This document shows positions 13,936 through 26,829 of a DNA stretch of 64,000 nt, piece by piece. Both the position numbers and the translations under genes were made by a program. Below the pieces are notes generated by a model, which saw only the letters and a program-made list of their open reading frames with translations, made no database searches and was not told the origin of the DNA. The stretch spans positions 1,302,001-1,366,000 of the forward strand of contig NZ_JAHHDS010000003.1 of the NCBI RefSeq assembly GCF_019739195.1. Reading direction: 5' to 3'. Numbering within the stretch: position 1 is the first letter of the stretch; each line of letters begins with the position of its first letter. The DNA is from Microcella sp. (GTDB lineage Bacteria; Actinomycetota; Actinomycetes; Actinomycetales; Microbacteriaceae).

Positions 13936-14943
13936 ATGAGCACCCCCGCTGCGGCGGCCACCAGCGAGAACCGCGCAGCTGACCGCGACCGCATCGCTAT
14001 CATCGTCAACCCGACGAAGGTTGACATGCGCGCCTTTCGGTCGGCGATCGCCGACGCGGAAGCGGCGGCAGGGTGGCGACCCTCGCTGTGGCTCGAGACA
14101 AGCGTCGACGACCCGGGTCAGGGCCGTGCTCGCGAGGCGATCGAGGCGGGCGTCAGCGCCGTGCTCGCCGCCGGTGGCGACGGCACCGTGCGGGCTGTCG
14201 CTGAAGGGTTGCTCGACTCGGGCATCCCGATGGTTCTCGTACCGTCAGGCACCGGTAACCTGCTCGCCCGCAACCTCGATGTGCCCATCGGGCGACTCAC
14301 CGACGCCGTGAGCATGGCCGCAGAGGGTGTCGACCAGGCCATCGACGTCGGCATCGCTGAGATCACACGCGCTGATGGCACGATAGAGAAGCATGCGTTC
14401 GTCGTGATGATCGGCATCGGTCTCGACGCCAAGATGATTAGTGCGACCAACCCCGAACTCAAGAAGCGCGTCGGTTGGCTCGCCTACGTCGAAGCTGTCG
14501 CCCGCATCGCCCGCGACGTCGACGCCGTGCGGCTGCGCTACACCCTCGACGCCAGTGCTGAGCGCTCGACGACCGTGCACACGCTGCTCATCGGCAACTG
14601 CGGCACCCTGCCCGGCGGCGTGCTGCTGCTGCCCGAAGCGCAGATCGACGATGGCCTGCTCGATGTCGTCGCCATGCGCCCCCGCAATCTGTGGGGGTGG
14701 ATGCGCGTGAGCTACGCCGTGGTCTGGGAGAACGGCGTGCTGCAGAGAAGCAAGGTGGGTCGGCGCATCATGGCCGCCGACAAGCGTGTGCGCGCCTTGC
14801 GCTACTTCCAGGGCCGCCACATGACTCTTGCCTTCGATGGCCCCGAAGACTTCGAGATCGACGGCGAAGAGATGGGGCAGGTCACGGCGATCGACGTGCG
14901 CGTCGCGCCCGCCTCGCTCGTGGTGCGTGTGCCGCGCAGCTGA
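13936..14943 (+). CDS. Diacylglycerol kinase family lipid kinase
   Basis: 335-aa lipid kinase of the DagK/YegS type, acting at the inner face of the membrane. The ATP-binding motif [15 protein letters not shown] and the downstream [13 protein letters not shown] are complete. The C-terminal beta domain includes [13 protein letters not shown] and the closing FEIDGEEMG. Its role could be diacylglycerol recycling or phosphatidylinositol mannoside-type lipid synthesis; sequence alone does not decide. The start at 13936 follows TACTCT by six bases, so the mRNA is probably leaderless. It is divergent from serS, and its stop lies 3 bases from the stop of the convergent HNH gene. Confidence 0.9.
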
Positions 14944-14946
14944 TAG

Positions 14947-15849
14947 CTAGCAGCCGCTGAGCACCTGGGTGAGAACTGTGCGATCGTCGCTCGGCACCGA
15001 CAGACGGTACTCAACGAGCACTTTGGTGAAGATCGTCACGTACACGCAGTGCGCGTCGCGGTTCGGGGGCATCCAGGATGCGGGGCCCGACGCCGATTTC
15101 TCCTGGTTGGCTTGCCCGCTCACCGCCAGGAGGTTCAGAGGATCGTTCGCGAAGTCCTGTCGTTGCTCTGTTGTCCAGGTGCTCGCGCCGTTGTCCCAGG
15201 CCCATGCGAGCGGCACGACGTGGTCGATCTGGACCAAGACAGACGTGTCCGCCCCAGACACAAAGGTCATGGCGTCGCCGGAGTATGGATCAATCAGGCC
15301 GCCCCTTAGCACCTTGCAGCCATTCGAGTCGCTCTTGATCATGACGTCGCTCAGGTCCCGCCGCAGGATGTCGTTACGGGTGTCACAGCCATTGCGGTCG
15401 GAGTCGTACCAGCTCTGTCCGAACAGGGTGCGGTCGTACCCGACTACATTGCCCGCGGCGGGTTCGTCGAGAGTCGCAAGGGCGCTCAAGAGCGCTGAGG
15501 CATCGCTTGACTCAGAGGGAGGCGCCGCCGGTGTCGGAGGGCGCTCAGGAGGAGCGACACTCTCCGGCGGACCCGTCGGGTCGGAACGATCCGGAGAAAT
15601 CGAACCCACCACGATGGGCGCAGCCTGACCCGTTATCGACAGGCCCCACGCCAGAAGTGCGACGAGAGCGACGAGGGCAGCCATTCCTGCCGCACCCAGT
15701 ACCACGCCGTGCACAAAGCCCAGGCCGTGCCACCAGGACCTACGCGGTTCGCCAGAGCGGCCCGGGGGGAAGGGGCTGTGCGAGGCGGGGCCTGGCGGCC
15801 GTGAGCGCCCCGGCGGGCGCGGGGGGCCTGAGCCCATCGGCGACGTCAC
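14947..15849 (-). CDS. Membrane-anchored HNH nuclease (DUF1524/GmrSD-C type)
   Basis: About 300 aa. It has a Pro/Arg-rich N-terminal tail (1-40), one membrane helix (about 41-72), then a Pro/Ser linker and a C-terminal HNH domain (about 125-300). Nuclease residues are visible in IDHVVPLAWAWDNGA (His pair), DPLNLLAVSGQANQEK (Asn and Lys) and a closing Cys. The helix orientation, with a basic tail inside, puts the nuclease outside the membrane. DUF1524 proteins of this type are often secreted in actinobacteria. The GTG start overlaps the upstream gene's stop as GTGA, so it is translated with the tubulin/VWA operon. The alternative start ATG is four codons later. It lacks the ParB-like GmrS half. 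Confidence 0.8.
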   Translation of the reverse strand: MTSPMGSGPPRPPGRSRPPGPASHSPFPPGRSGEPRRSWWHGLGFVHGVVLGAAGMAALVALVALLAWGLSITGQAAPIVVGSISPDRSDPTGPPESVAPPERPPTPAAPPSESSDASALLSALATLDEPAAGNVVGYDRTLFGQSWYDSDRNGCDTRNDILRRDLSDVMIKSDSNGCKVLRGGLIDPYSGDAMTFVSGADTSVLVQIDHVVPLAWAWDNGASTWTTEQRQDFANDPLNLLAVSGQANQEKSASGPASWMPPNRDAHCVYVTIFTKVLVEYRLSVPSDDRTVLTQVLSGC

Positions 15850-18800
15850 AGACCCTCTCGCGCGCTCGTGGCGCGGGCGCCACCGTCTGTTCGAGGACGG
15901 CTGTTGGCTTTCTCCCACAAACGAGCAGCGGTGACGGGAATGGGCCCGGCCACGTCAACCCGCAACACCAAGTCGAGTGCGCGTACGTCGGAGTCGGTGT
16001 AGGCCGTGACGTCGAGTGGGGATCGAGAGCCCGCGGCTTGGGCATCCCCGCTCAACCGATCGGGTACGAGCAGGTAGCTCCGCACGTTCTCGTGATGCGC
16101 GTCGGCCAGGGCCATCTCTGCAATGCCGAGTGACCCGATTGGAGTGACCGGGTTCGAGCGACCAGCAACCGAATCGAGCAGGAAGGAGTCCCACTCGACG
16201 GGGACTTCTCGGCGCAGAGCGTCGCGTGCAGAACTCGACTCATCGCCCTCGAGAGGGTCCGCGGCGACGGGGCTCACCCGAGGGTTCGAGTGACTCAAAG
16301 AGACTCCCTGCACTTCAGCAACGATCTCTCGCAAGTAGCTCTGAGCAAGCGACTGGAGAAGCTCAGGGTCATTCGCGTGCTCCATGAGGATTCGACGCGA
16401 GTGATTCGACGCATGGGGCATGTCTGCATCGAGGCTGTCGATGCCCAGGGTTGCGGCGTCGTAGCCGAGGCGTGACCGAAGTTCTTCCAGGAGTCGTGAG
16501 AACGCACGAGCGCGCCATCCTTTGACCATCAGAGCGCGGGAGGCTTCCCTCTTCATGCGCCCGAGTGTCACGGGGTCGTCGTCACGGGCGATCGCGAGTC
16601 TCATTGCATACGGGAGCTGGGAGCGATCGATGCTCGGCGCATCGGTCGCCAACCACGATTCACGAACGGCCCAGGGGTGGTGGAGTGCATCGGCAAGAAG
16701 CTGAAGCCACTCTTGGGCTTGCCGGTGAAGCACCTCCAATCGGCGAAGCTCGCGCCGAGCATTTCGTGACGCGTTCGCCGCCCACTCCAGTCGGTCTCCC
16801 ACCTCGACGATCAGCCTCTCGACTCGTGACCACTGTCGGTAGTACTGAAGCAGGATGGCGATGAGAATAATGACGATGGCAGCAGCGCCAAGCGCGATCA
16901 CCTGCCATGCTTCAGGCCACCAGCTCAACCTCCGCAAGGACGGAACGAGAGCATCGACGGCGAAGTACACGAGCACGAAGCCCGCCGTGATCAACGAACC
17001 AGTTCCGAAACGGCGATGGAAGGACTTTCGCAAGGCGATCAAGCGACCGGGTTCCGGCAACTCAACGCTCTGGAGCGCATCCTCTGCCGAGGCGAGGTCC
17101 TGTGCCGCACGTTCACGACGTTCAGTCATGCCAGCAACGATCCGACCGTAGATCGACGTCTCGTGGCCAGCGATCCACTGTTCGAAGCTCGCAAGAACGG
17201 CGTGTCGGGCCTGTCGCTCGTCGTGAGCAGACGTTACGACAAGGTCAGCAGCGGTAATCCGTCGCTCTGAGGCGGCAAGCCGAGCAGGCAACTCACTGAA
17301 CTCTCTCTTGAGTGCGACGAGATCCAGCGCTCCTTCTTCGACTGCCCCGTCGACCTTCTTCGGGCTCGGCGCACGCTTGCCCTTGATGACGACCGCCAAA
17401 CCGTGCTCGTCAAACTCCACCAACTCGTGCTCGAACAAGACAGCAGCGAGTTCCTCTGACCTCAATTGCAGAGAATCCCGATCGGCGATCGCCTCGTGAC
17501 GCTCGGCTTCACGGGCGGCGATCAGCGACTCTGCAGACTGGGCCCACCGGATGACTGCCTGTCGAACGGCACCAAGCGACTCCAGGTCTTCGAGCCCCAC
17601 ACTGGGGGGAATATCGTCGGGCCGGTCATCGCTCGGAAACCGCCAGCGATCATGCGTAGGCTGCACGAGGTCGCTGACGCGAGCGAAGATCGGGGTCTTG
17701 TCTTCGATCGGAGTGAAGCCAATCTCCGTGAGGTCCGCAGAGCCATCCAGAACTCCGAACATCATCTCTCGGAGCCGAGCCCAGAGGCTCGGCGTTGAGC
17801 GGATTGCCGCGATCTCATCAAAGGCTGCCGCGGAACTGCGCGCAGCGGAGACCTCTGCGGCCACGCGGTCGCGATGTGCGACGAGGTTTCGATCACGGAT
17901 GTCGTACTGCTCGACATCTGAACCGACAACGGCCAGACCTTCGGACGAGTGGAAGGTCTCCGTTGCCGATCGAGAGACTCGACCGACGATCGCCCGGATC
18001 GCCCACTTCGGCATCGCGACGACTTTGTCGAGCGCGAAGGACGCGAACGAAACGGCCTGGCCCCGCAAGGTCATCCGGTCGCGTGCGCGGGTCTCGTACG
18101 CAGCGACTGGAGAGTAATCCAATCGCCCCTTGTCGATCTGGAAGATGCCCTCAACCACTCGATCGACGTAGTGGCTGCGCCGCTCATCGGTGATAAAAGC
18201 CGTTCCCGGAGGGGGAACAGAGGTCAGGGCGTCGACGATGTCGGAGTTGCCATCTCCGGCATCCGCGAGAACCCCCGCGGCGACGCGGTTCGCAAAGCCG
18301 TCCATCAGCACGGCGTTCACAAACACGCGAGACACCCAGATGCTGTGATACATCGAGGCCTCTTGACTAAACAGGTCGAAGGTTCCGACCGGTGCAGCGT
18401 TCCAGAGCCCGCCGACCGTTGCGATGTGCATGAGACAAAAGCCAACGAATCGATCGTTGTCTCGAACAAACGCGTCGCCCGACCACGGGCTCGACCTGTC
18501 TTCGGGTGAGGCGACGACGATCAGGCCCGGATCGTCTGTCGCCCAGGCGACGCGCTGCGTAACCTGAAACTCGGTCGGAGCACAGATCAGTGTCGCCTCC
18601 GAGAGCAGAAGTTGCTGGTCGGAGATGTTCTGGTTCGGATCAGCGGACGGGACGGAGTGTTTGACATACCGATTCAGTGACTCCGCGATCGCATCCTGCG
18701 CCTTATCGAGTTCTCGCCGCGGAGTCGTCGACCGCACCTTCAGCACCCGAACCTGGCGCAGCTCATCACGAGCTAAGACCTCGAACAGGTCGCGCCGCAG

Positions 18801-19022
18801 GTCGAGAAGCTCACGGTTCGGCCCCAAGCGCATGACCCGGGCGAAGATGATGGGAGGTGCGCCGGGCTCGAGCGTGACATCCTCAGGCGCCACCCAGAGG
18901 GCCGGGCCCAAGAGACCCAACTGAACCCAATTACGAGCCAGAGCCAAGACCCGCTGTCCCTGGTCACCGCCCGGAAGCAGAACGATCGGGACCGTGCTCG
19001 ACGGCCAGAAGGTTGAGTCCAC
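15846..19022 (-). CDS. Large coiled-coil membrane protein of unknown family
   Basis: 1058 aa, not recognised. Residues 1-350 look globular (starting VPIVLLPGGDQGQRVLALA); the glycine loop is not a Walker A motif. Charged helical stretches rich in Ala, Glu and Arg (about 385-420, 500-660) look like coiled coil. Two membrane helices follow (about 672-690, LITAGFVLVYFAVDA, and 703-724, VIALGAAAIVIILIAILL). After these come another Arg/Glu-rich helix (about 725-770) and a soluble C-terminus, so both ends face the same side. The GTG start begins 5 bases after the tubulin-like stop. A longer reading from 19115 would overlap that gene by 88 bases. It probably links the tubulin-like protein to the membrane (inference). 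Confidence 0.7.
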   Translation of the reverse strand: MDSTFWPSSTVPIVLLPGGDQGQRVLALARNWVQLGLLGPALWVAPEDVTLEPGAPPIIFARVMRLGPNRELLDLRRDLFEVLARDELRQVRVLKVRSTTPRRELDKAQDAIAESLNRYVKHSVPSADPNQNISDQQLLLSEATLICAPTEFQVTQRVAWATDDPGLIVVASPEDRSSPWSGDAFVRDNDRFVGFCLMHIATVGGLWNAAPVGTFDLFSQEASMYHSIWVSRVFVNAVLMDGFANRVAAGVLADAGDGNSDIVDALTSVPPPGTAFITDERRSHYVDRVVEGIFQIDKGRLDYSPVAAYETRARDRMTLRGQAVSFASFALDKVVAMPKWAIRAIVGRVSRSATETFHSSEGLAVVGSDVEQYDIRDRNLVAHRDRVAAEVSAARSSAAAFDEIAAIRSTPSLWARLREMMFGVLDGSADLTEIGFTPIEDKTPIFARVSDLVQPTHDRWRFPSDDRPDDIPPSVGLEDLESLGAVRQAVIRWAQSAESLIAAREAERHEAIADRDSLQLRSEELAAVLFEHELVEFDEHGLAVVIKGKRAPSPKKVDGAVEEGALDLVALKREFSELPARLAASERRITAADLVVTSAHDERQARHAVLASFEQWIAGHETSIYGRIVAGMTERRERAAQDLASAEDALQSVELPEPGRLIALRKSFHRRFGTGSLITAGFVLVYFAVDALVPSLRRLSWWPEAWQVIALGAAAIVIILIAILLQYYRQWSRVERLIVEVGDRLEWAANASRNARRELRRLEVLHRQAQEWLQLLADALHHPWAVRESWLATDAPSIDRSQLPYAMRLAIARDDDPVTLGRMKREASRALMVKGWRARAFSRLLEELRSRLGYDAATLGIDSLDADMPHASNHSRRILMEHANDPELLQSLAQSYLREIVAEVQGVSLSHSNPRVSPVAADPLEGDESSSARDALRREVPVEWDSFLLDSVAGRSNPVTPIGSLGIAEMALADAHHENVRSYLLVPDRLSGDAQAAGSRSPLDVTAYTDSDVRALDLVLRVDVAGPIPVTAARLWEKANSRPRTDGGARATSAREGL

Positions 19023-19027
19023 AGCGA

Positions 19028-22000
19028 TCAGGTCCCGATGTTGACGGTTCGTGTGACCAGAACCGCTGATCGAACGCTCTGAATCGCATCCGCGATCTGA
19101 CCGCGAATCTCCCAACTGACGGGGTAGTCGTATGCCGACGTGTCGGGGTCCTGACGCATGACCTGATCACCGAAATCGGCCAGTTCCTGGTCAAGGTAGG
19201 CACGCAGCGCTTCCTGCCTCTCCTCGAGCGTTCCGGCCGTGGATCCCGCACGTGCGGGATCGGGAACCGGCGACTTTTCTGGGAGGGAACCAAGTTGCAG
19301 CCAGTCCCGGAGCGTGTCCGACAGGGTTCTGTCCGACCCCCCCAAGTCCATGAGCGCCTGATAGGGACGCAACGGAATGGTAGACGACTGGGCGCTACAG
19401 GCGACCATCGCGACCATCAGCGACTCCATGACAACGCCCGGATAGTCGTGCGGTTCCGCAATCCCGGGGTGCAGCAAGGGGTACGGGAAGGCGGAAAGCT
19501 TCCGAGCGGAGGCGTCCCACACCTTGAGCTCGGGTCCTCGAGCGGAATCGATGCTCGTGCGCTCGAGCCAGCCGAGCGCCTTCGCGACATACCACCCCCG
19601 CAGCATGGACGCGAGCACGGCTGCATCCGCCGGCACAGCCTCGCTAAGCAGGCGTGCTCGCTTGAACTTCCAAAACGCTTCCCGACTATCGATAGTCGAA
19701 CTCTGGGCGAGCCACGTTCGAGCGATTGGCTCCATCACCGAATCCATGACGACGGGCTGGTATGGGAAAGCCGACATCGCGAAGATCTCGATCGACTCCA
19801 CCTGCTGATCGGCAAACCAGTCAGGCGAAATATTGTCGTTCCAGAGCCCCTGCGCGGCCAAGATTCCCTTCGTCAGGCTGTGCATGTCCGTCCCCTCGGC
19901 GAAGGGAATGGCGCCGAAGACAAGCTGCGGGGGCTCATCAATCGACTTGTTGTGGATCTCGCTGAGAAGTGTGGGGTTCAGCTTGACGAGGGGTTCACTC
20001 GCGCCCAGGGCAGCGGTGAACTGCTCGCGGAAGGTAGCGACGCGGCGTGCATAGACGTCAGGGGTGGAGTTGTCCTTGTCGAGATAGGCGTTGAGCGTGT
20101 CACGAATGTAGGCCCCGAATGGCTTGCCGTCCCGGAGAATCCAGCTTCGGGAACGGTCACGGTACGCCTCCGGATCCCCCTCAGTCTCGAACCTCGGCTT
20201 CCGGGTCGCCTGCGTCCGTTGCCGCGGATCCGCGGAGGTGGCCGGCTGCCACGACTGGCTCACACTCACGAACGACCAGCGCTCCTCAGCAGACAGTGCC
20301 GGATCGTCGAAGCCGACCGTAACCTCCGACATGACCGTAAGAATCGCGTCCAAGAATCGTTCGCGTTGTGTCGTCGCGGTGACCAGCCGCTCGAACTCGG
20401 AAGGGTATTCCGCGTGTTCGACGAGCAACCGCTCATTCGGAGCAGGCTCAAACTTGCGGGGGACGATCGAATCGTTTCGGCGCGGCCAGAACTCAAAATC
20501 GTTCTCACGACCATCCAGGGTCCGCTTTGCACTGGTCCGCTCGAGAAGCTGCTTGTGGGTCCCCGCCAGATGAGCGCGAAGAGGGTCGACAACGTCCTTG
20601 CGGATCTCCTCCATGAGTGCCGCACCCGACTCGCGCAGCCGAGCTTCCGAAGCCCACTCGAATCCATCACCCACAGTCTGGAATGCCTTCTGCACGGCAG
20701 GATGCTCAGGACGAATGGATGAAGCATTCGGCGCCATTCGCAGGTCTTCGCTGACGAACGAGTCGAGCCGCTCCGACCACATGCGGTAGTTGCCGCTCTC
20801 ACCACGAAGACCCTCCGCAGCGCTCCCCAAGTCGCGGCTCAGTCGGCGCAGGAGCTCCACGACGACGGGCAGACCATAGTCCGCGACGTATAAGGAGACC
20901 GTCCGAGCGATGTGGCTTGGCATCCGCTCAACCCACTCGTCGAGTCGACGTTGCCGGTTACCGTTGTCCTGTGCGAGGTAGGAATCCACCAGCCCCTGGA
21001 AGGAAGCAACCATTCGTTCTGCCCAGGTGTTGAGGTCAAGGCCTCCGCTCTTATCGAGCCCGACGGTCACCTGCTGTTCTACCGCCGCACGGATGCGAGT
21101 GACGAGCTCTTCTAGACCCTGCTTGTCGCGCAGGGCGTCGATGACGTCGTTGAACTCGTCCGTCTCTTCGTTGAGTTCCAGTGTGCGAATGAAGCCCTCG
21201 TAGGCCTCCGCGGCCTTGACGTCGATCCACTCCGCTTCGGTGCGTTGCAGAAACTGGCGATCCTCTTCGACGTGAGCTTCCAGGATGCGGTCGACCACTG
21301 AGCGTGCGATGCGCTCCGCGGAGTACTCCAGGAATCGCTCACGGCCAAGGGTTACGCGACCGAAGCCGAGGGTGGAGAAAGGAGGCGACTGGTCAGCGGG
21401 ACGCATGAGTCGCGTCGTGTCGGGCAGAACCGAGGCGCTCACTCGCGCCTGCCAGTTGCCCGTCGAGTATGCGCCGATAGAGTCCTGAATGTGGTCATCC
21501 GTCATCCAGGCGGCCAGGCTCGTCGCGACCGCGGAGTAGACCTCGCCTTGGTTCGCGAAGGTGACCTTGGAGTTGCGGCGACCAATGATGAACGGATACG
21601 CAGCTCCGACTCGGGACATTGCAGTCCCGTAGGCGGGGGCGATGCCCTTGGCCCGAAACATCTCGAGGGTGGCCTCCGACGGTGTCTCCGTCCAAAACCC
21701 GTTCATCGCCTCACTGATGGCCGCCAAGGCGTTGCCCGGCATTCCTGTCGTCACATCCAGCTGGTCGAAGACATCGGGGGCGTAGAGGAACGAGAAGAAC
21801 TGATTCGACCAGGGATACTGCTTGACCGTTGACTTGACGATCTCTATGACATCGAGGAACTGGCCGGCACCCGAACCACCCGCGATTGACGACACCACGA
21901 CCACCGTGGGGCTCGCCGTCCGTCCACCATCAGACCGCGCGTTTAGCTTCTCCCCCAGGGTTTGCAGCTCACCAAGTGCCGTCGCGTCGTTCATGCGACT

Positions 22001-22429
22001 GATCGCGTCGCGAGCGGCGACTTCGACCTCTCGCGGGGCTGCCAAGACAACGGTTCGACCAACCGCTCGATACTGCCCGGCTCCCTTGTCCACCGCGACC
22101 CGGACCCGCGTCGGGTCAGGAAGCTGGCGCTTGACGTCGTTGAGCAAAGCATCTGCAATGCTGCCGCCGTGGGAGACGCTGTTATACACCGACCCGTAGT
22201 TCATGCCGCCCGAGACGAGACCCTTGTACTGCTCTGCCGGCAGGAACGGAGCCGGGTAGTCCTGGCCGTCTTGCGCGATGGGGGTGTCGATGTGGATGAA
22301 CTGCCAGGCCTGCGGAAGCCCACCGTTCCATCCCTTCTGTCTCAGAACGAGTTCGAGCTGGTACTTGAGACCACGAAGGGTCTTGCCGCCGGAACCGCCG
22401 ACACCGATGAGGAGGAAGGGACGAAGCAT
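19028..22429 (-). CDS. FtsZ/tubulin-like GTPase-fold protein (Tubulin_2 type)
   Basis: 1133 aa. The N-terminal third is a tubulin-superfamily domain. LLIGVGGSGGKTLRGL (about 6-21) matches the first nucleotide loop. SSIAGGSGAGQFLDVI (about 179-194) matches the glycine-rich T4 signature, GGGTGTG in FtsZ. The remaining 800 residues are charged, mostly helical and unassigned, so this is far larger than FtsZ. Such long FtsZ-like proteins form a separate branch reported next to VWA proteins. GAAAGG about 10 bases before the ATG supports the start. It lies 35 bases after the VWA gene and 5 bases before the next gene. GTP binding and polymer formation are inferred from family. Confidence 0.85.
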   Translation of the reverse strand: MLRPFLLIGVGGSGGKTLRGLKYQLELVLRQKGWNGGLPQAWQFIHIDTPIAQDGQDYPAPFLPAEQYKGLVSGGMNYGSVYNSVSHGGSIADALLNDVKRQLPDPTRVRVAVDKGAGQYRAVGRTVVLAAPREVEVAARDAISRMNDATALGELQTLGEKLNARSDGGRTASPTVVVVSSIAGGSGAGQFLDVIEIVKSTVKQYPWSNQFFSFLYAPDVFDQLDVTTGMPGNALAAISEAMNGFWTETPSEATLEMFRAKGIAPAYGTAMSRVGAAYPFIIGRRNSKVTFANQGEVYSAVATSLAAWMTDDHIQDSIGAYSTGNWQARVSASVLPDTTRLMRPADQSPPFSTLGFGRVTLGRERFLEYSAERIARSVVDRILEAHVEEDRQFLQRTEAEWIDVKAAEAYEGFIRTLELNEETDEFNDVIDALRDKQGLEELVTRIRAAVEQQVTVGLDKSGGLDLNTWAERMVASFQGLVDSYLAQDNGNRQRRLDEWVERMPSHIARTVSLYVADYGLPVVVELLRRLSRDLGSAAEGLRGESGNYRMWSERLDSFVSEDLRMAPNASSIRPEHPAVQKAFQTVGDGFEWASEARLRESGAALMEEIRKDVVDPLRAHLAGTHKQLLERTSAKRTLDGRENDFEFWPRRNDSIVPRKFEPAPNERLLVEHAEYPSEFERLVTATTQRERFLDAILTVMSEVTVGFDDPALSAEERWSFVSVSQSWQPATSADPRQRTQATRKPRFETEGDPEAYRDRSRSWILRDGKPFGAYIRDTLNAYLDKDNSTPDVYARRVATFREQFTAALGASEPLVKLNPTLLSEIHNKSIDEPPQLVFGAIPFAEGTDMHSLTKGILAAQGLWNDNISPDWFADQQVESIEIFAMSAFPYQPVVMDSVMEPIARTWLAQSSTIDSREAFWKFKRARLLSEAVPADAAVLASMLRGWYVAKALGWLERTSIDSARGPELKVWDASARKLSAFPYPLLHPGIAEPHDYPGVVMESLMVAMVACSAQSSTIPLRPYQALMDLGGSDRTLSDTLRDWLQLGSLPEKSPVPDPARAGSTAGTLEERQEALRAYLDQELADFGDQVMRQDPDTSAYDYPVSWEIRGQIADAIQSVRSAVLVTRTVNIGT

Positions 22430-22464
22430 GGATGGACTGCCTTTCGGGGTGGAGCGATGACGAC

Positions 22465-25272
22465 CTAACGCCCAGGGGGGCGGGGCATGGACGGGGGCGA
22501 ATCATTGCCCCGGGTTCGGGGAGGAAGGGACTCTGACCGAGTCGGAGCTGCCGGGCTAGAAGGCGCACTCCGTCCTGGCGGACGGGGTGGACCGCTTGTT
22601 GGTTCCGGCGCAGCATCCCCGCCGGAGGATGGTCGAGATGAGCTGCGTGGTTCCTCCGGGTTAGTGGAGACTGACGGCGGGCCCTCCGCGGACTCCGGCT
22701 GACTGCTCGCTATGGCCTGAGCGAGTTCCCGAACGCGTGCGCGCCAGTCCGTCAGGGTCATGATCTCCAGGAGCCGCTTCGCGTACTGGCCAGATTGTCC
22801 GAGCACAGGCTGGAGATAGACGACGAGGACGCCGGCTACAGCACCGTCAGCCCCACGGCTCCGCAGTTCGCGCTCATCGATGGCGACACCCCACGCGCTC
22901 GACAACACCCCATTGCCGGCCACGAGAGTCCCTTCGGCGAGCTTGGGCGATAGGTGACGCGGTGCGACACCGCCCTGCTTGGCGATAAGCCGGGTTCCGG
23001 CCGGGGCTATGAGGCTGAACCAGGCTGGCTGCAGCGGGCTGAGGGGCACCCGCACGGCGAAGGCGCCGAGTCGAGCGTCTGTGTGGGTCCGCACTCGCTC
23101 GTTCGGCGGCAGGTTACGGAACGCGCTGGCAAGGCTCGCCTCATCGGAGAGGTCAATTTCCGGCATCGTGACCGTGCCGTCTTTGATCACCACCGGGAAC
23201 TCGGCACGCTGGAGGAGGCGACCGTGCTGGAGCCCCACCAGACCGCGCTTGAGTAGCCAGGCGAGGGCCACCGGGATAGCGATTCCGACAAGGAGGAGAA
23301 GAGCGAGCAGCCCGATAAGCAAGCCGAGGTTGATCCGCCGTTCCGTCTGCAACTCGAACGGCACGGACTGAATCACCCGCACGTTCTGGCCGCTGGTCTC
23401 ATCGACCGGCACCTGGAGTTCAACGAGAAGCTCACCTCTCACGACCGAGAACTCCGGGTCTTCACCCTCCACGATTCCGAAGGTGAAAGTGACCGGATTC
23501 TGGTCCGGGCCGAACTGACCACAGACGCTTCCCCCGCTTTCGCAAGCAGTCGAGGGCTCCTCGATCGCGAACTCTCGGCCGAACTCGTCTTGGATCGCGA
23601 GTGGGGCAGCATCGCGAACGATCACGTCCACCACCCCACCGTCCGCAGGCGGATTGGCCAGGATCTCTCCATGGGCAGGTTCACGCGCCGAACCCGCGGG
23701 CCCGCCAAAGCGAATGCTGAGGTCTGCAGGCACCTGGTCAGGATCCAGAACGGTCAATCGCAGCGAGGCGATCGGACCGTCAAGAGCAACAGCGCCGTCA
23801 ACAGTGCGGAGATTCACGAGCGAAATGTCCACGACCGGTTCCGCACCGGGTCGAGCCGAAGTCGCGCCGAAGTCGATGGTGAACTGTGCGCCTTCACCAC
23901 CCGAGATCTCATTGGGCAGCGCTCTTGGGCGCTCTTCATCCTCGAGCCGCTCCTGAATAATCCAGTCGTACTCGTAGAGACTCAGGTTGGCGGGGTTTCC
24001 ATCTCTGTCGAGAATCGCTCCCGTGATGACAGCGCCTTCGCCACTGACCACGCCAAGGTTGCCTCCCCCCAGTCGATCCACCTCGACACGAAGATCGCTG
24101 AAAAGGTAGAGCGACGCGCTCCCTTCCTCATGCCCGACGACCTTCCAGGTGCCGAGTGCGGGGTCGTCTTCGTATGCCGCATCGATCGACACCTCGACTG
24201 CAGAACTCGTGGAATTGGAACTCTCTGTCACCGTGACCCCGCCAGGACTCGAGAGGTCACCCCGCGCTAGCAACTCTCCGCTCGGCATCGCCAAGGACCA
24301 CGAGGTTGAGTTGCCCGGGAAGCGGAGAATGAACCTGCTGACGCCCTTTGGGATGACGAACTCCCCCGCGTCATTCAGATCGTTTGAAATGCTGCTCGGC
24401 GAACCACCTGCGACGAGTATCGACAGTCGATCAAACACGTCGGCCAAGTCACCCGCCTCAGTGACCTTGGTAACTGAACCACGAACATCCGTCGGAGAGA
24501 TTTCCGCGCAGGCACCTCCCTCGGCGGATCCCTCAACCACCCTTACTAGCTGTTCAGCCGAATCTGGATTGGGATTCAGGAAGACCCCAAACACGACGAC
24601 CTGGCGCCCCCTTAGCTGCTGCAGCAGTCCACGTTCGCCGCCCACTCCCGTGCACAAGGCATCGAAAGCCGCCAGGGTCCTGTCGCCATTCACGCCATCG
24701 CCGAGGTTGATTTCACCGTCGGTGAACCAGATCAACATCGAACAGCCGGGAGCCACCTGCTGTTGGGCCGCGAGACTCTGACTGGCACCTCGGATGCCAT
24801 CTTCCCAATTTGTCCATCCCCCGTCCGTTGGCGGAATAACCTCAGCCAAGCGGTTGGCATCGTCGGGAGACTCGAGAACTGACCAATCAGATAGCGGGGT
24901 GAACACGTCCTTGAAGCTCCCGGCCGCCCAATAAACCTTGTCATCCGACGTCAACTGCAAGAGGGATCGAAGGCTGTCAGCAAGGACGGGTCGTCTGAGT
25001 TCACCACGATCTGTGTCAGCCAATGATCCCGAGTCGTCGAGCAGGTAGAAGACGTTGAGAACGTTGTTCACCGCCAGGCAGCCGCGCAAGTCCTGAAGAG
25101 CTGCCTCCTCATTGTTCAGAGGAGCATCCGTGACGGGGGGCGGGGGCGCCGAACGCTCCACAGTGGGGCTCTCGACAGACGGGCCGACGCAGGCCGCTAA
25201 CGCGACAGCAAGAAGCGTCCCTGCCGTCACGGAGTGAAGAATGCGCCCGCGGCGCCAAGTGGTCGCGGTCAT
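22465..25272 (-). CDS. VWA-domain lipoprotein with a C-terminal membrane helix
   Basis: 935 aa. A signal peptide ends in the lipobox VALAAC (Cys about 27). The VWA domain (about 70-290) has a complete MIDAS: DDSGS near 77, Thr in GGWTNWEDG, and Asp in WFTDGE near 181. Beta-rich segments follow to about 640, then one long membrane helix (about 651-675, GLLIGLLALLLLVGIAIPV). A cytoplasmic domain and a Pro/Ser/Arg-rich tail of about 80 residues end the protein. The layout suggests an external metal-dependent binding head tied to an internal tail. The ATG overlaps the upstream stop as ATGA. A longer start at 25383 would lose the signal peptide. Confidence 0.85.
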   Translation of the reverse strand: MTATTWRRGRILHSVTAGTLLAVALAACVGPSVESPTVERSAPPPPVTDAPLNNEEAALQDLRGCLAVNNVLNVFYLLDDSGSLADTDRGELRRPVLADSLRSLLQLTSDDKVYWAAGSFKDVFTPLSDWSVLESPDDANRLAEVIPPTDGGWTNWEDGIRGASQSLAAQQQVAPGCSMLIWFTDGEINLGDGVNGDRTLAAFDALCTGVGGERGLLQQLRGRQVVVFGVFLNPNPDSAEQLVRVVEGSAEGGACAEISPTDVRGSVTKVTEAGDLADVFDRLSILVAGGSPSSISNDLNDAGEFVIPKGVSRFILRFPGNSTSWSLAMPSGELLARGDLSSPGGVTVTESSNSTSSAVEVSIDAAYEDDPALGTWKVVGHEEGSASLYLFSDLRVEVDRLGGGNLGVVSGEGAVITGAILDRDGNPANLSLYEYDWIIQERLEDEERPRALPNEISGGEGAQFTIDFGATSARPGAEPVVDISLVNLRTVDGAVALDGPIASLRLTVLDPDQVPADLSIRFGGPAGSAREPAHGEILANPPADGGVVDVIVRDAAPLAIQDEFGREFAIEEPSTACESGGSVCGQFGPDQNPVTFTFGIVEGEDPEFSVVRGELLVELQVPVDETSGQNVRVIQSVPFELQTERRINLGLLIGLLALLLLVGIAIPVALAWLLKRGLVGLQHGRLLQRAEFPVVIKDGTVTMPEIDLSDEASLASAFRNLPPNERVRTHTDARLGAFAVRVPLSPLQPAWFSLIAPAGTRLIAKQGGVAPRHLSPKLAEGTLVAGNGVLSSAWGVAIDERELRSRGADGAVAGVLVVYLQPVLGQSGQYAKRLLEIMTLTDWRARVRELAQAIASSQPESAEGPPSVSTNPEEPRSSSRPSSGGDAAPEPTSGPPRPPGRSAPSSPAAPTRSESLPPRTRGNDSPPSMPRPPGR

Positions 25273-25733
25273 GAACTGAACTCCTGGACCCATTCGACGA
25301 TGGGCACCGCCACGGTGATGATGTGCCAGAGCGAGACAACGATTCCGAGAGCGGCAGCAAGCTTCAGAGTGGTTCCGAACCACGGTCGAGGAATGAACTG
25401 TGGATTCGACAGACCACGGCCCTGTAGAACTCGATCAATGACGAGCGCGCAAATCGGGATCACCGGTGTCAGCAGATAGCCAACCCAGCCCAAGTACGCA
25501 GCGTCGGCCTGCGGCAGCGTCAGGGCGAACCAGGGAGGGAGAAGGACTGTCGGCTTGCCTACCGAGACACCCACGAAGAGGAGGCCCACGCTCGCGAGTA
25601 CCGCGGCGACTCCGACGATCATCGGCCAGGGTGATGCGTAGGCAGGCGAGTAGGTGACACCGTGACCACCCTGAACGCCGACTCTAGCGCCCACCCGCTT
25701 CGCATCAATGCGATGAGGTGGGGTGCGAGACAT
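25269..25733 (-). CDS. Small three-helix membrane protein, first gene of the operon
   Basis: About 154 aa, not recognised. Three hydrophobic segments: IVGVAAVLASVGLLFVGVSV, then YLLTPVIPICALVI, then a helix near LAAALGIVVSLWHIITVAV. The N-terminal 40 residues are basic and soluble. The start is set at MSRTPP, 10 bases after GAGGAG. ATG codons three and six codons upstream are possible, but the first has the SD too close and the second has none. It is coupled to the VWA gene by ATGA. It may be a membrane scaffold for the complex (inference). Confidence 0.65.
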   Translation of the reverse strand: MSRTPPHRIDAKRVGARVGVQGGHGVTYSPAYASPWPMIVGVAAVLASVGLLFVGVSVGKPTVLLPPWFALTLPQADAAYLGWVGYLLTPVIPICALVIDRVLQGRGLSNPQFIPRPWFGTTLKLAAALGIVVSLWHIITVAVPIVEWVQEFSS

Positions 25734-25814
25734 ATTCGTCATACTCCTCATATCTTGACCAGGTTTCAAGACTAAGGAGAAACTCAGGATTCGCACCCGG
25801 CCAGGCGGTCCCCA

Positions 25815-25843
25815 CTTATAGGGCTACCGGCGACCACCGACAA
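25815..25843 (-). promoter_or_regulatory. Promoter of the tubulin/VWA/HNH operon
   Basis: Read on the minus strand, TTGTCG (25843-25838) and TATAAG (25820-25815) are spaced by 17 bases. The start point would be near 25808, giving a leader of about 75 bases before the first gene. This is unlike the leaderless promoters common elsewhere in the window. It lies just after the pheA stop, so the operon need not depend on pheA transcription. Confidence 0.6.
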
Positions 25844-25872
25844 CGGCTTACGTTTTGCGAAGACCTGGCCGC

Positions 25873-26829
25873 TCAGATCACGTCGGGCTCGCCGCTGAGA
25901 ATGGCGCGCAACCAGTCGCGAGCATCCGTGAAGACGTCGTCGCCGTACTGCGAGACGACCTCGATTTGGCGGGCATCCGCTCTCGGATACGAGCCGAGGA
26001 AGATGACGTTGGGGCTGAAACGCCGCAGGCCGAGCAGGGCGTCGGCGACGCGCTCGTCGTGCACGTGGCCGTCGAGATCGATGACGAAGCGGTAGCGGCC
26101 GAGCGCGTCGCCGATGGGGCGCGACTCGATCAGGCTCATGTTCACCCCGCGCGTGGCGAACTGCTCGAGCATCTCGAGCAGGCGGCCCGGGGCGTCGTCG
26201 GGCAGCTCGGCGATGACGCTCGTCTTGTCGGCACCGGTGCGCGGCGGCAGTTCGCGGCTGCGGCTGACGAGCACGAAGCGCGTGACCGCATTCGGGTTGT
26301 CGCCGATGCTGTCGGCCAGTTCGACCAGGTCGAGCAGCTCGGTGATGCCCGGCGGCGCGATCGCGGCCTGCGCGGGCGAATCGAGCTCGAGCAGACTCTG
26401 CGGCGCGGCGACATTCGAGGCGGAAGGAATGTGGCCGTGGGTCGGCAGCGCGCTCTCGAGAAAACGACGGCACTGCGCGTAGGCGACCGGGTGCGCGGCG
26501 ACCACTCGCACGTCGGCGAGAGTCACCCCGGGCCGGGCCACCAGCACGAAGTTCACGGGCACGAGGTACTCGCCGATGATGCGCAGGCCAGGGATCGTCG
26601 CGAGGGCGTCTTGTGTGGCGCTCACTCCGCCCTCGACCGAGTTCTCGACGGCGATCATGGCGCCGACGCTGCGGCCCGCGATGACATCGTCGAGCGCCTC
26701 GCCCACGTTGCTGACGCTGCGCCACTCGGCACCCTCGGCCTCGGGCACCTGCGCGAGCGCGTGCCAGGTGAAGGTTCCGGCCGGGCCCAGGTAGCTGTAC
26801 ACCGGGGTCTGATCGGGGTGCGCGCTCAT
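25873..26829 (-). CDS. pheA: Prephenate dehydratase
   Basis: Converts prephenate to phenylpyruvate in phenylalanine synthesis; cytosolic, 318 aa, monofunctional type without a chorismate mutase domain. The catalytic domain runs from YSYLGPAGTFTWHAL through NAVTRFVLVSR, the TRF motif. The ACT domain (about 205-290) has the phenylalanine-binding signature ESRPIGDALGRYRFVID. Feedback inhibition by Phe is therefore expected. The start at 26829 follows TAGACT by seven bases (leaderless). It is divergent from pgm, 65 bases away. Confidence 0.96.
   Translation of the reverse strand: MSAHPDQTPVYSYLGPAGTFTWHALAQVPEAEGAEWRSVSNVGEALDDVIAGRSVGAMIAVENSVEGGVSATQDALATIPGLRIIGEYLVPVNFVLVARPGVTLADVRVVAAHPVAYAQCRRFLESALPTHGHIPSASNVAAPQSLLELDSPAQAAIAPPGITELLDLVELADSIGDNPNAVTRFVLVSRSRELPPRTGADKTSVIAELPDDAPGRLLEMLEQFATRGVNMSLIESRPIGDALGRYRFVIDLDGHVHDERVADALLGLRRFSPNVIFLGSYPRADARQIEVVSQYGDDVFTDARDWLRAILSGEPDVI

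Follow-up and report, generated by a model that had tools for sequence, protein, structure and literature searches.

Operons that link a tubulin-like protein of the FtsZl1 family to a von Willebrand factor A (VWA) protein were published in 2010 by Makarova and Koonin (PMC2875224), who predicted a function in membrane remodelling and vesicle biogenesis and could not identify the second half of the tubulin fold. The words nuclease, protease, peptidase, trypsin, HNH and defense are absent from the accessible main text of that paper. A related actinobacterial theme, a tubulin with a membrane VWA protein, was described by Kaur et al. (2020; PMC7159879) among the GAP1-N2 GTPase systems, for which the accessible text proposes a role in conflict. 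Here we analyzed a five-gene operon of this kind in a stretch of 64,000 nucleotides from Microcella sp. (contig NZ_JAHHDS010000003.1, positions 1,302,001 to 1,366,000; hereafter the window) together with its relatives in other genomes. The comparison revealed a conserved core to which different enzymes are attached in different lineages, the nuclease of the window being one of several exchangeable effectors. We tentatively propose, at somewhat below an even chance, that the operon encodes an envelope-associated conflict machine in which a membrane-anchored scaffold displays exchangeable surface enzymes.

The operon consists of five close-packed genes over 14947-25796, all on the minus strand as are all features given below, which encode in order a small three-helix membrane protein (TM3), a VWA lipoprotein (VWA), an FtsZl1/Tubulin_2 protein (TUB), a long partner containing a coiled coil (CC) and an HNH nuclease (HNH). 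Hydropathy places three membrane helices in TM3, one in the leader and one late in VWA, two in CC and one in HNH. An earlier sequence-only reading of this stretch had described the same gene order and junctions, and we recovered them: the TM3 stop and the VWA start overlap in ATGA, VWA and TUB are separated by 35 bases, TUB and CC by 5 bases, and CC overlaps HNH in GTGA. The operon boundary which it placed at 25843 is not a gene boundary; TM3 (25269..25796; longest frame 175 amino acids, stop at 25269) starts at 25796 or, just as likely, at an ATG at 25733 behind AGGAG. That the five genes form a single transcription unit is likely because of the gene overlaps, but a search of 14900-26000 gave no promoter consensus, and the gene upstream, pheA, has the same orientation. 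Similar to the operons of Makarova and Koonin, whose FtsZl1-VWA link the sequence-only reading had correctly named, TUB is a family member, VWA is adjacent to it and membrane proteins are part of the operon. Different from them, none of the five genes matches a kinase, OmpA or GTPase family, and a nuclease or protease partner, unmentioned in the accessible main text, is represented here by HNH.

A single-protein scan of genome contigs returned no relative. An alignment scan of the contigs returned 186 relatives, of which the best 80, together with the window, make up a census of 81 loci including flanks of up to 10 kb. In most of these loci the order TM3-VWA-TUB-CC is found again, which is more than chance. 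Where at least 1 kb of upstream sequence is available, VWA is directly upstream of TUB in 72 of 76 loci; where at least 1 kb of downstream sequence is available, CC is the first or second gene after TUB in 74 of 75; and TM3 directly precedes VWA in 52 of the 67 loci that extend at least 4.5 kb upstream. Judging by record titles, Actinomycetes or Acidimicrobiia account for most of the loci, Microbacterium flavescens JCM 3877 (L162) being one carrier; a few records, labelled Planococcus, Luminiphilus, Saprospiraceae and Bifidobacterium breve metagenome-assembled genomes (MAGs), may be misnamed or misbinned.

The last gene of the operon (HNH, 14947..15849, 300 amino acids) encodes a tail predicted to be cytoplasmic, one membrane helix and a GmrSD_C/HNH domain predicted to lie outside. 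The catalytic domain at 14992..15384 (residues 179-309 of a 323-residue frame) is matched by Pfam GmrSD_C at 4e-18, over the cut-off; no GmrSD/DUF262 N-terminal Pfam match was obtained up to E 1, the N-terminus being made up of the tail and the helix. An N-terminal GmrSD/DUF262 domain is the defining part of GmrSD type IV restriction. HNH genes were identified in 22 of 81 loci (23 hits), trypsin-like protease genes in nine (10 hits) and either of them in 30, amounting to 32 genes as L149 is counted twice. The HNH hits occupy gene position -1 or +1 relative to the core in 21 of 23 cases, against 139 of 780 flanking genes (binomial 3e-14), with 15 after CC and six before TM3 (one a fragment, L110), and six of the ten trypsin hits are the first gene after CC (binomial 7e-5); both binomials overstate independence, the loci being related, and are not true probabilities. 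In the window, Rathayibacter, Clavibacter, Cellulosimicrobium and others, HNH follows CC on the same strand. It precedes TM3 in Occultella and Georgenia (L121, L123-L125), where it is divergent, and in L122, where it shares the strand of the core; in L142 it comes after CC in convergent orientation. A single frame of L149, called at 436 amino acids and matched by both profiles, contains a trypsin domain followed by an HNH domain. Pfam confirms the trypsin domain in L115, L153, L159, L161 and L145, and it finds an Excalibur calcium-binding domain in the proteins of L111 and L142. In the Aquiluna locus L111 (16622-19056), an Excalibur-bearing membrane protein follows CC, and the trypsin-like gene, called as two pieces, lies further on. 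In L150 (15976-23005), from an actinomycetotal MAG, CC is followed by a 754-residue gene without Pfam match, then by a TIR_2 gene (3.6e-17, with weak WD40 matches) and, on the opposite strand, by an NB-ARC gene; the TIR_2 protein is perhaps another type of effector for the core.

The sequence-only reading had treated the nuclease as a coupled member of the operon, which is correct in that it is a recurrent partner but has to be amended in that it is exchangeable and missing from 59 of 81 loci within the flanks available. This absence would also suit a nuclease that is only a hitchhiker unlinked to the core, as would the abundance of GmrSD_C genes, of which at least one was found in 148 of 198 genomes of the family. 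Such an explanation is already disfavoured and we regard it as highly improbable, given the adjacency of 21 of 23 hits in four arrangements, the operon gene being the only GmrSD_C match in the window genome, the protease taking the same slot elsewhere, and the tail tag shared with VWA, for which a linker control was null (see below). Seven of 11 TUB-bearing genomes of the family have GmrSD_C within 10 kb of TUB. When 34 HNH domains (24 from TUB loci and 10 as background) were placed in a tree, those of the operons did not cluster in one clade; of five label changes, at least two are forced by well-supported branches. This topology would fit repeated recruitment and, in part, also a single gain followed by losses and rearrangement. 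A coupling of nuclease and protease has a precedent in System 3 (NucA-trypsin) of PMC7159879, in whose accessible description an HNH-superfamily nuclease and a trypsin-like protease are coupled, sometimes fused, and carry membrane segments. The L149 protein resembles these systems in the coupling and the membrane segments, and differs in that the nuclease is GmrSD_C instead of NucA and is accompanied by the tubulin/VWA core.

Most effector enzymes are predicted to face outward. Of the 27 effectors in which hydropathy shows a helix, 22 have more lysine and arginine before than after it, which by the positive-inside rule would put the tail in the cytoplasm and the enzyme on the outer side. All 21 HNHs listed contain at least four cysteines after the helix (exactly four in 16), and a spacing pattern DH...FANDP.NL...N..K was recognized by eye from their listing.

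The GAP1-N2 systems of PMC7159879 share with this operon a tubulin with a helical region and a membrane VWA protein. Their section 29, as far as accessible, gives a single tubulin per actinobacterial system and mentions no second protein like CC, whereas the window has CC; the outward nuclease is likewise a feature of the window. Three or four additional genes come after the core in loci of Curtobacterium PhB115, Gordonia, Rhodococcus, Corynebacterium, Mycobacterium and Nocardia. In L165 the second gene past the core matches GAP1-N2 (7.6e-21) and GAP1-M and the fourth matches DO-GTPase2 weakly (2.1e-5, below the cut-off), families that trace to Kaur et al. (2020). Among 20 TUB-bearing genomes, GAP1-N2 was detected in three (G356, G454 and G586), near TUB each time, and in none of the other 17, the window's included; DO-GTPase2 was detected in these three and in G194, which has two hits on a contig other than that of TUB. 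Corynebacterium glutamicum, used as a control, gave matches to Tubulin_2, GAP1-N2 and DO-GTPase2 alike. The window genome matches neither GAP1-N2 nor DO-GTPase2, and no FNIII/HRDC gene follows CC in the window, the rest of the genome not having been searched for one. The results of the GAP1-N2 and DO-GTPase2 searches therefore indicate that the version in the window shares this core but lacks the GTPase module and carries an outward enzyme. The operon could instead be a reduced GAP1-N2 conflict system in the sense of Kaur et al., that is, an intracellular sensor complex whose effectors act inside the cell on host or invader, with the outward topology misread. The core of L165 with its GAP1-N2 and weak DO-GTPase2 neighbours, the presence of both families in G356, G454 and G586, and the actinobacterial tubulin theme of PMC7159879, as far as its text is accessible, speak for this, but GAP1-N2 is missing in 17 genomes and DO-GTPase2 in 16 of those, and the positive-inside rule, the cysteines and the Excalibur domains place most enzymes outside; we consider it quite unlikely.

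The exchangeable enzymes may be tied to the core by their tails. VWA (22465..25272, 935 amino acids) is predicted to have an extracellular VWA domain, one late membrane helix and a proline/arginine-rich tail of 256 amino acids on the cytoplasmic side. Its earlier description as a lipoprotein with a full metal ion-dependent adhesion site (MIDAS) holds by eye for the MIDAS residues DDSGS...T...D and for the lipobox LAAC in the leader, but the VWA_2 Pfam match (0.0061) is under its cut-off. Ten residues, SGPPRPPGRS, are identical between the tail of VWA (22567..22596) and the tail of the nuclease (15802..15831). In other lineages the shared motif is PPPPPPRR (L121), PPPRPG (L106) or RPQSLFDD beside RPRSIFDE (L122), and in proteases GPPS (L145) or DGPRL (L161); a longer frame of L123 shows PPPPR. 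Alignments between the VWA tail and the effector tail of the same locus scored 56.6 against 45.1 after shuffling among loci (20 pairs; 0 of 20,000 shuffles), and 56.5 against 42.5 after thinning by hand to 16 pairs (0 of 20,000). The shuffles assume exchangeable loci though the loci are related, and two controls that share this relatedness were null, with 10,381 of 20,000 shuffles for the effector's outward linker and 1,644 of 20,000 for the N-terminal 130 residues of VWA. The own pair ranked first in only 6 of 20 cases. A cruder test, the longest common string in all 28 pairs, gave 4.61 against 3.47 (0 of 5,000). These 28 pairs leave out the second-hit fragments of L110 and L111 as well as L115 and L149, in which no VWA was identified, and include effectors that do not adjoin the core (L104, L132, L134, L145 and L111); eight pairs with a called tail shorter than 25 amino acids (L110, L111, L118, L119, L123, L132, L133 and L141) were dropped to obtain the 20. 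A weaker match is seen between the tails of TM3 and VWA (9 of 20,000; n = 49, without control), and comparison of the VWA tail gave 8,401 of 20,000 with the TUB end and 721 of 20,000 with the CC end, the latter without a matching control. Statistically, these data suggest a lineage-specific tag common to the VWA tail and the effector tail, which is new here.

TUB (19028..22429, 1133 amino acids) was regarded as FtsZ/tubulin-like in the sequence-only reading, and it matches Tubulin_2 (PF13809) at 2.5e-40 with 139.3 bits against a cut-off of 27. Its T1 nucleotide loop GVGGSGGKT (residues 9-17; 22379..22405) retains G9, G11, G12, S13, G14, G15 and T17 in at least 90% of 59 sequences. The T4 signature loop GGSGAG, noted before, is present at 21863..21880, with G184 and G187 invariant and G185 nearly so in these sequences. 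A model predicted from the same 59 sequences (mean pLDDT, the predicted local distance difference test, 91.1) reaches Z scores of 19.1 to 21.3 against tubulins, CetZ and the bacterial BtubA/B over 304 to 358 residues, with a root-mean-square deviation (rmsd) of 3.7 to 4.8, among the 50 matches listed. The alignments start at model residue 2 or 3 and stop between 910 and 1020 and cover both tubulin domains; Foldseek agrees (best 5.1e-4, CetZ2). TUB is thus predicted to have a tubulin fold, in which the long helices at about residues 400-790 would be an insertion between both domains, and the later parts of the fold that were not identified for FtsZl1 in PMC2875224, as accessible, are present in the model. 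NCBIfam searches gave nothing over chance for the five window proteins, and TUB and CC profiles compared with PDB sequences matched helical stretches only and no tubulin.

CC (15846..19022, 1058 amino acids) had been described as a coiled-coil protein with two membrane helices. The two helices are there, forming a hairpin inside the coiled coil at 16833..17003 by hydropathy, but the description may understate CC, whose model (mean pLDDT 86.8, from 46 sequences) looks tubulin-like. In VIA-align gamma-tubulin ranked first, with Z 10.5 and an rmsd of 5.0 over 273 residues between model residues 9 and 1043, a Z only moderately over the 7 to 8 typical of matchless models, helix-rich ones reaching 14. 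Going by the titles and chain lengths, tubulin or FtsZ chains (Z 7.9 to 10.5) make up about 37 of the 50 listed matches, the eight best included, and most of their alignments run from model residue 8-10 past 1027. By eye the layout fits both tubulin domains, with an N-terminal part to about 300, an insertion consisting of the coiled coil with its membrane helices, and a C-terminal part from about 800. A conserved glycine-rich GTP loop was not found in CC, a loose pattern occurring in 3 of 46 CC rows, each time elsewhere, against 54 of 59 TUB rows; we therefore call CC tubulin-like and not a member of the superfamily, and a degenerate tubulin-like fold is, on the predicted model, probable. In L101-L104, L107, L109, L115 and L135, the last residues of CC are preceded by a cysteine-rich stretch (RCPRCGKTTCPAAD type, zinc-ribbon-like by eye), and most of these loci have no effector adjoining the core. 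CC of L131, L134, L144, L151, L153, L159 and L174, mostly Acidimicrobiia, contains six or seven hydrophobic segments instead of two.

The last residues of TUB and CC are alike within many loci and change together between lineages. Examples of TUB/CC ends are DEREFL/ADREFL (L121), DDPGVWN/DDPNVWN (L122), EAEPLL/IEEPLL (L132), VEDRLS/EEDRLS (L157), DDETM/DEDSM (L161), KSGI/NSGI (L101) and DTGV/DSGV (L099). In the 64 of 81 loci with complete TUB, CC and VWA, the score of the last six residues was 8.55 against -2.76 after shuffling (0 of 20,000), and it remained at 6.91 against -3.87 (n = 44) and 6.79 against -4.21 (n = 34) after thinning at 70% and 55% TUB identity, respectively (0 of 20,000 each). 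The corresponding three counts out of 20,000 were 5,381, 2,102 and 1,355 for control positions -12 to -6, 1,476, 4,030 and 7,433 for VWA ends, and 4,575, 11,796 and 17,445 for TM3 ends. End scores of at least 9 against TUB were reached by 33 of 70 CC genes and by 9 of 818 other genes of the loci. A second set of 28 loci, partly from the same genomes, gave 10.6 against -3.3 (0 of 20,000) and added the ends DEIEY/DPLEY and LFGSGF/FFGEGF. The TUB/CC ends of L089 and L097 are EIEY/PLEY and DEVF/PEVF, which bring to mind the EEY terminus of eukaryotic alpha-tubulin. The matching suggests a C-terminal peptide by which TUB and CC would both dock into one type of pocket, on TUB or on a common partner.

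We consider it possible, with a little less confidence than the machine as a whole, that CC is a hidden second tubulin-type subunit which co-assembles with TUB via an exchangeable C-terminal peptide coevolving with its pocket, while a tail peptide code recruits the VWA sensor and the outward enzyme of the lineage, be it a nuclease, a protease or a fusion. CC may alternatively be merely a coiled-coil membrane anchor, its tubulin match being an artefact of aligning mixed alpha/beta parts, an explanation compatible with the other readings. Several results weigh on that side and against a second subunit. Foldseek gave no match for CC at E up to 0.001, comparison of CC and TUB profiles, whole or cut into domains, showed no sequence similarity, and the glycine loop is not conserved; the rmsd is high and helix-rich models can score as well by chance. 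Regarding the C-termini, what weighs against the proposed machine is that control positions -30 to -24 are slightly raised (1,636, 863 and 693 of 20,000, the lowest 3.5%), that the ends of the window's own TUB and CC (NIGT and REGL) do not match, and that neither do those of L117 (-8), L165 (-10) and L170 (-9). The predominance of tubulin and FtsZ chains among the listed matches, the strand-helix order that fits both tubulin domains by eye, and the C-terminal peptide shared with TUB argue against a simple anchor, which we hold to be unlikely.

The operon is an accessory, patchy locus because it is rare in the genus and family and its site is empty or otherwise filled in 18 relatives of the genus. 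Of the genomes sampled, 1 of 26 in the genus and 11 of 199 in the family have Tubulin_2, and the window genome has one TUB copy. Plasmids yielded two Rhodococcus records at 26%. Between pheA and the lipid kinase gene, the 18 relatives have a gap of at most 41 bases in six (L210-L214 and L216), at most 600 in four more, and a distance of 4 to 6 kb in eight, of which the four inspected (L209, L217, L219 and L222) all have a long xylanase-like frame (by eye) in between. The junction of pheA and the lipid kinase gene, at 14943-25873 of the window, is thus variable in the genus and is empty or contains a long xylanase-like gene (by eye) or the operon. TUB is missing from all 25 other genomes of the genus. 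An integration hotspot for defence genes was considered and rejected, since the site is variable but shows no sign of a defence island. Ten further genes of the window are metabolic, transport-related or without match. Metabolic neighbours would suit an operon that served envelope housekeeping or membrane remodelling, its scaffold shaping membrane or wall and its outward enzyme clearing extracellular DNA or protein or recycling nutrients, without any role in conflict. Membrane proteins throughout the operon, VWA outside the cell, and the remodelling and vesicle biogenesis predicted in the accessible text of PMC2875224 are consistent with this explanation, but the patchiness and the exchange of effectors look more like an arms race, and a TIR gene is present in L150. 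We regard it as rather unlikely, though deserving more weight than the anchor explanation for CC.

In the proposed conflict machine, cytoplasmic TUB, with its predicted tubulin fold, would bind GTP, polymerise and assemble with CC, a membrane-anchored tubulin-like partner without nucleotide loop that would fix the TUB scaffold to the membrane. The C-terminal peptides of TUB and CC would dock in one pocket type, on TUB or a common partner. VWA would present a metal-dependent adhesion domain on the outer face and keep its tagged tail in the cytoplasm, and the same tag on the cytoplasmic tail of the effector would let the scaffold gather the VWA sensor and the effector. Upon a presumed trigger, the outward effector may cut incoming DNA (HNH, in the window) or protein (trypsin-like, in relatives) at the membrane. 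A conflict setting is suggested because the GTPase-bearing version was proposed as a conflict system (PMC7159879, as accessible) and L150 carries a TIR_2 gene. Defence against incoming DNA or phage would be the most likely purpose, in view of the enzyme exchange, the patchy presence and the published conflict-type relatives.

A number of observations weigh against this machine. Neither HNH nor trypsin was found in 51 of 81 loci within the flanks available, and of the 57 loci whose two flanks each span at least 1.5 kb, 26 have either effector and 31 have neither. The positive-inside rule is broken in 5 of 27 effectors (L111, L119, L123 with a doubtful start, L132 and L142), the protease of L134 has no helix, and the effectors of L110, L118 and L141 have nearly no cytoplasmic tail. 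Phage records and viral contigs contained no relatives, and the tested neighbours in the window are metabolic and form no defence island. PADLOC-DB 2.0.0 (E < 0.001) returned no match for the five window proteins, the best being Cas9 at 0.083 for HNH. In Zorya, a membrane machine with motor proteins performs sensing at the envelope, and the nuclease deployed is cytoplasmic. The operon is alike in outline but has a tubulin core, an outward nuclease and no PADLOC match.

For the closely related GTPase-bearing version, a conflict role was already proposed (PMC7159879, as accessible), which the sequence-only reading, in suggesting a defence, competition or envelope-remodelling function, did not cite. 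Among the matches listed from the open-licence literature, as far as their text is accessible, no nuclease or protease partner of the TM3-VWA-TUB-CC core is reported. The same matches contain no second actinobacterial tubulin-like subunit and no matched C-termini, neither of which was specifically searched for. New here, as predictions and statistics, are the exchangeable effectors, the shared tail tag, the tubulin-like model of CC and the co-varying ends of TUB and CC.

FtsZl1 proteins were described in 2010, and the papers on them considered here (PMC2875224, PMC7159879, PMC9871819 and PMC5898192) contain, in their accessible parts, predictions only. Exchangeable outward enzymes, tail tags and matched TUB/CC ends make the function of FtsZl1 experimentally approachable, and the questions that can now be addressed include the pocket for the C-terminal peptide, the reader of the tail tag and what the outward nuclease protects against. 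If true, a cryptic second tubulin-like subunit would be a new architecture in the tubulin superfamily, and the operon would represent a bacterial tubulin system of two components, anchored in the membrane, in which surface enzymes are sorted according to peptide tags.

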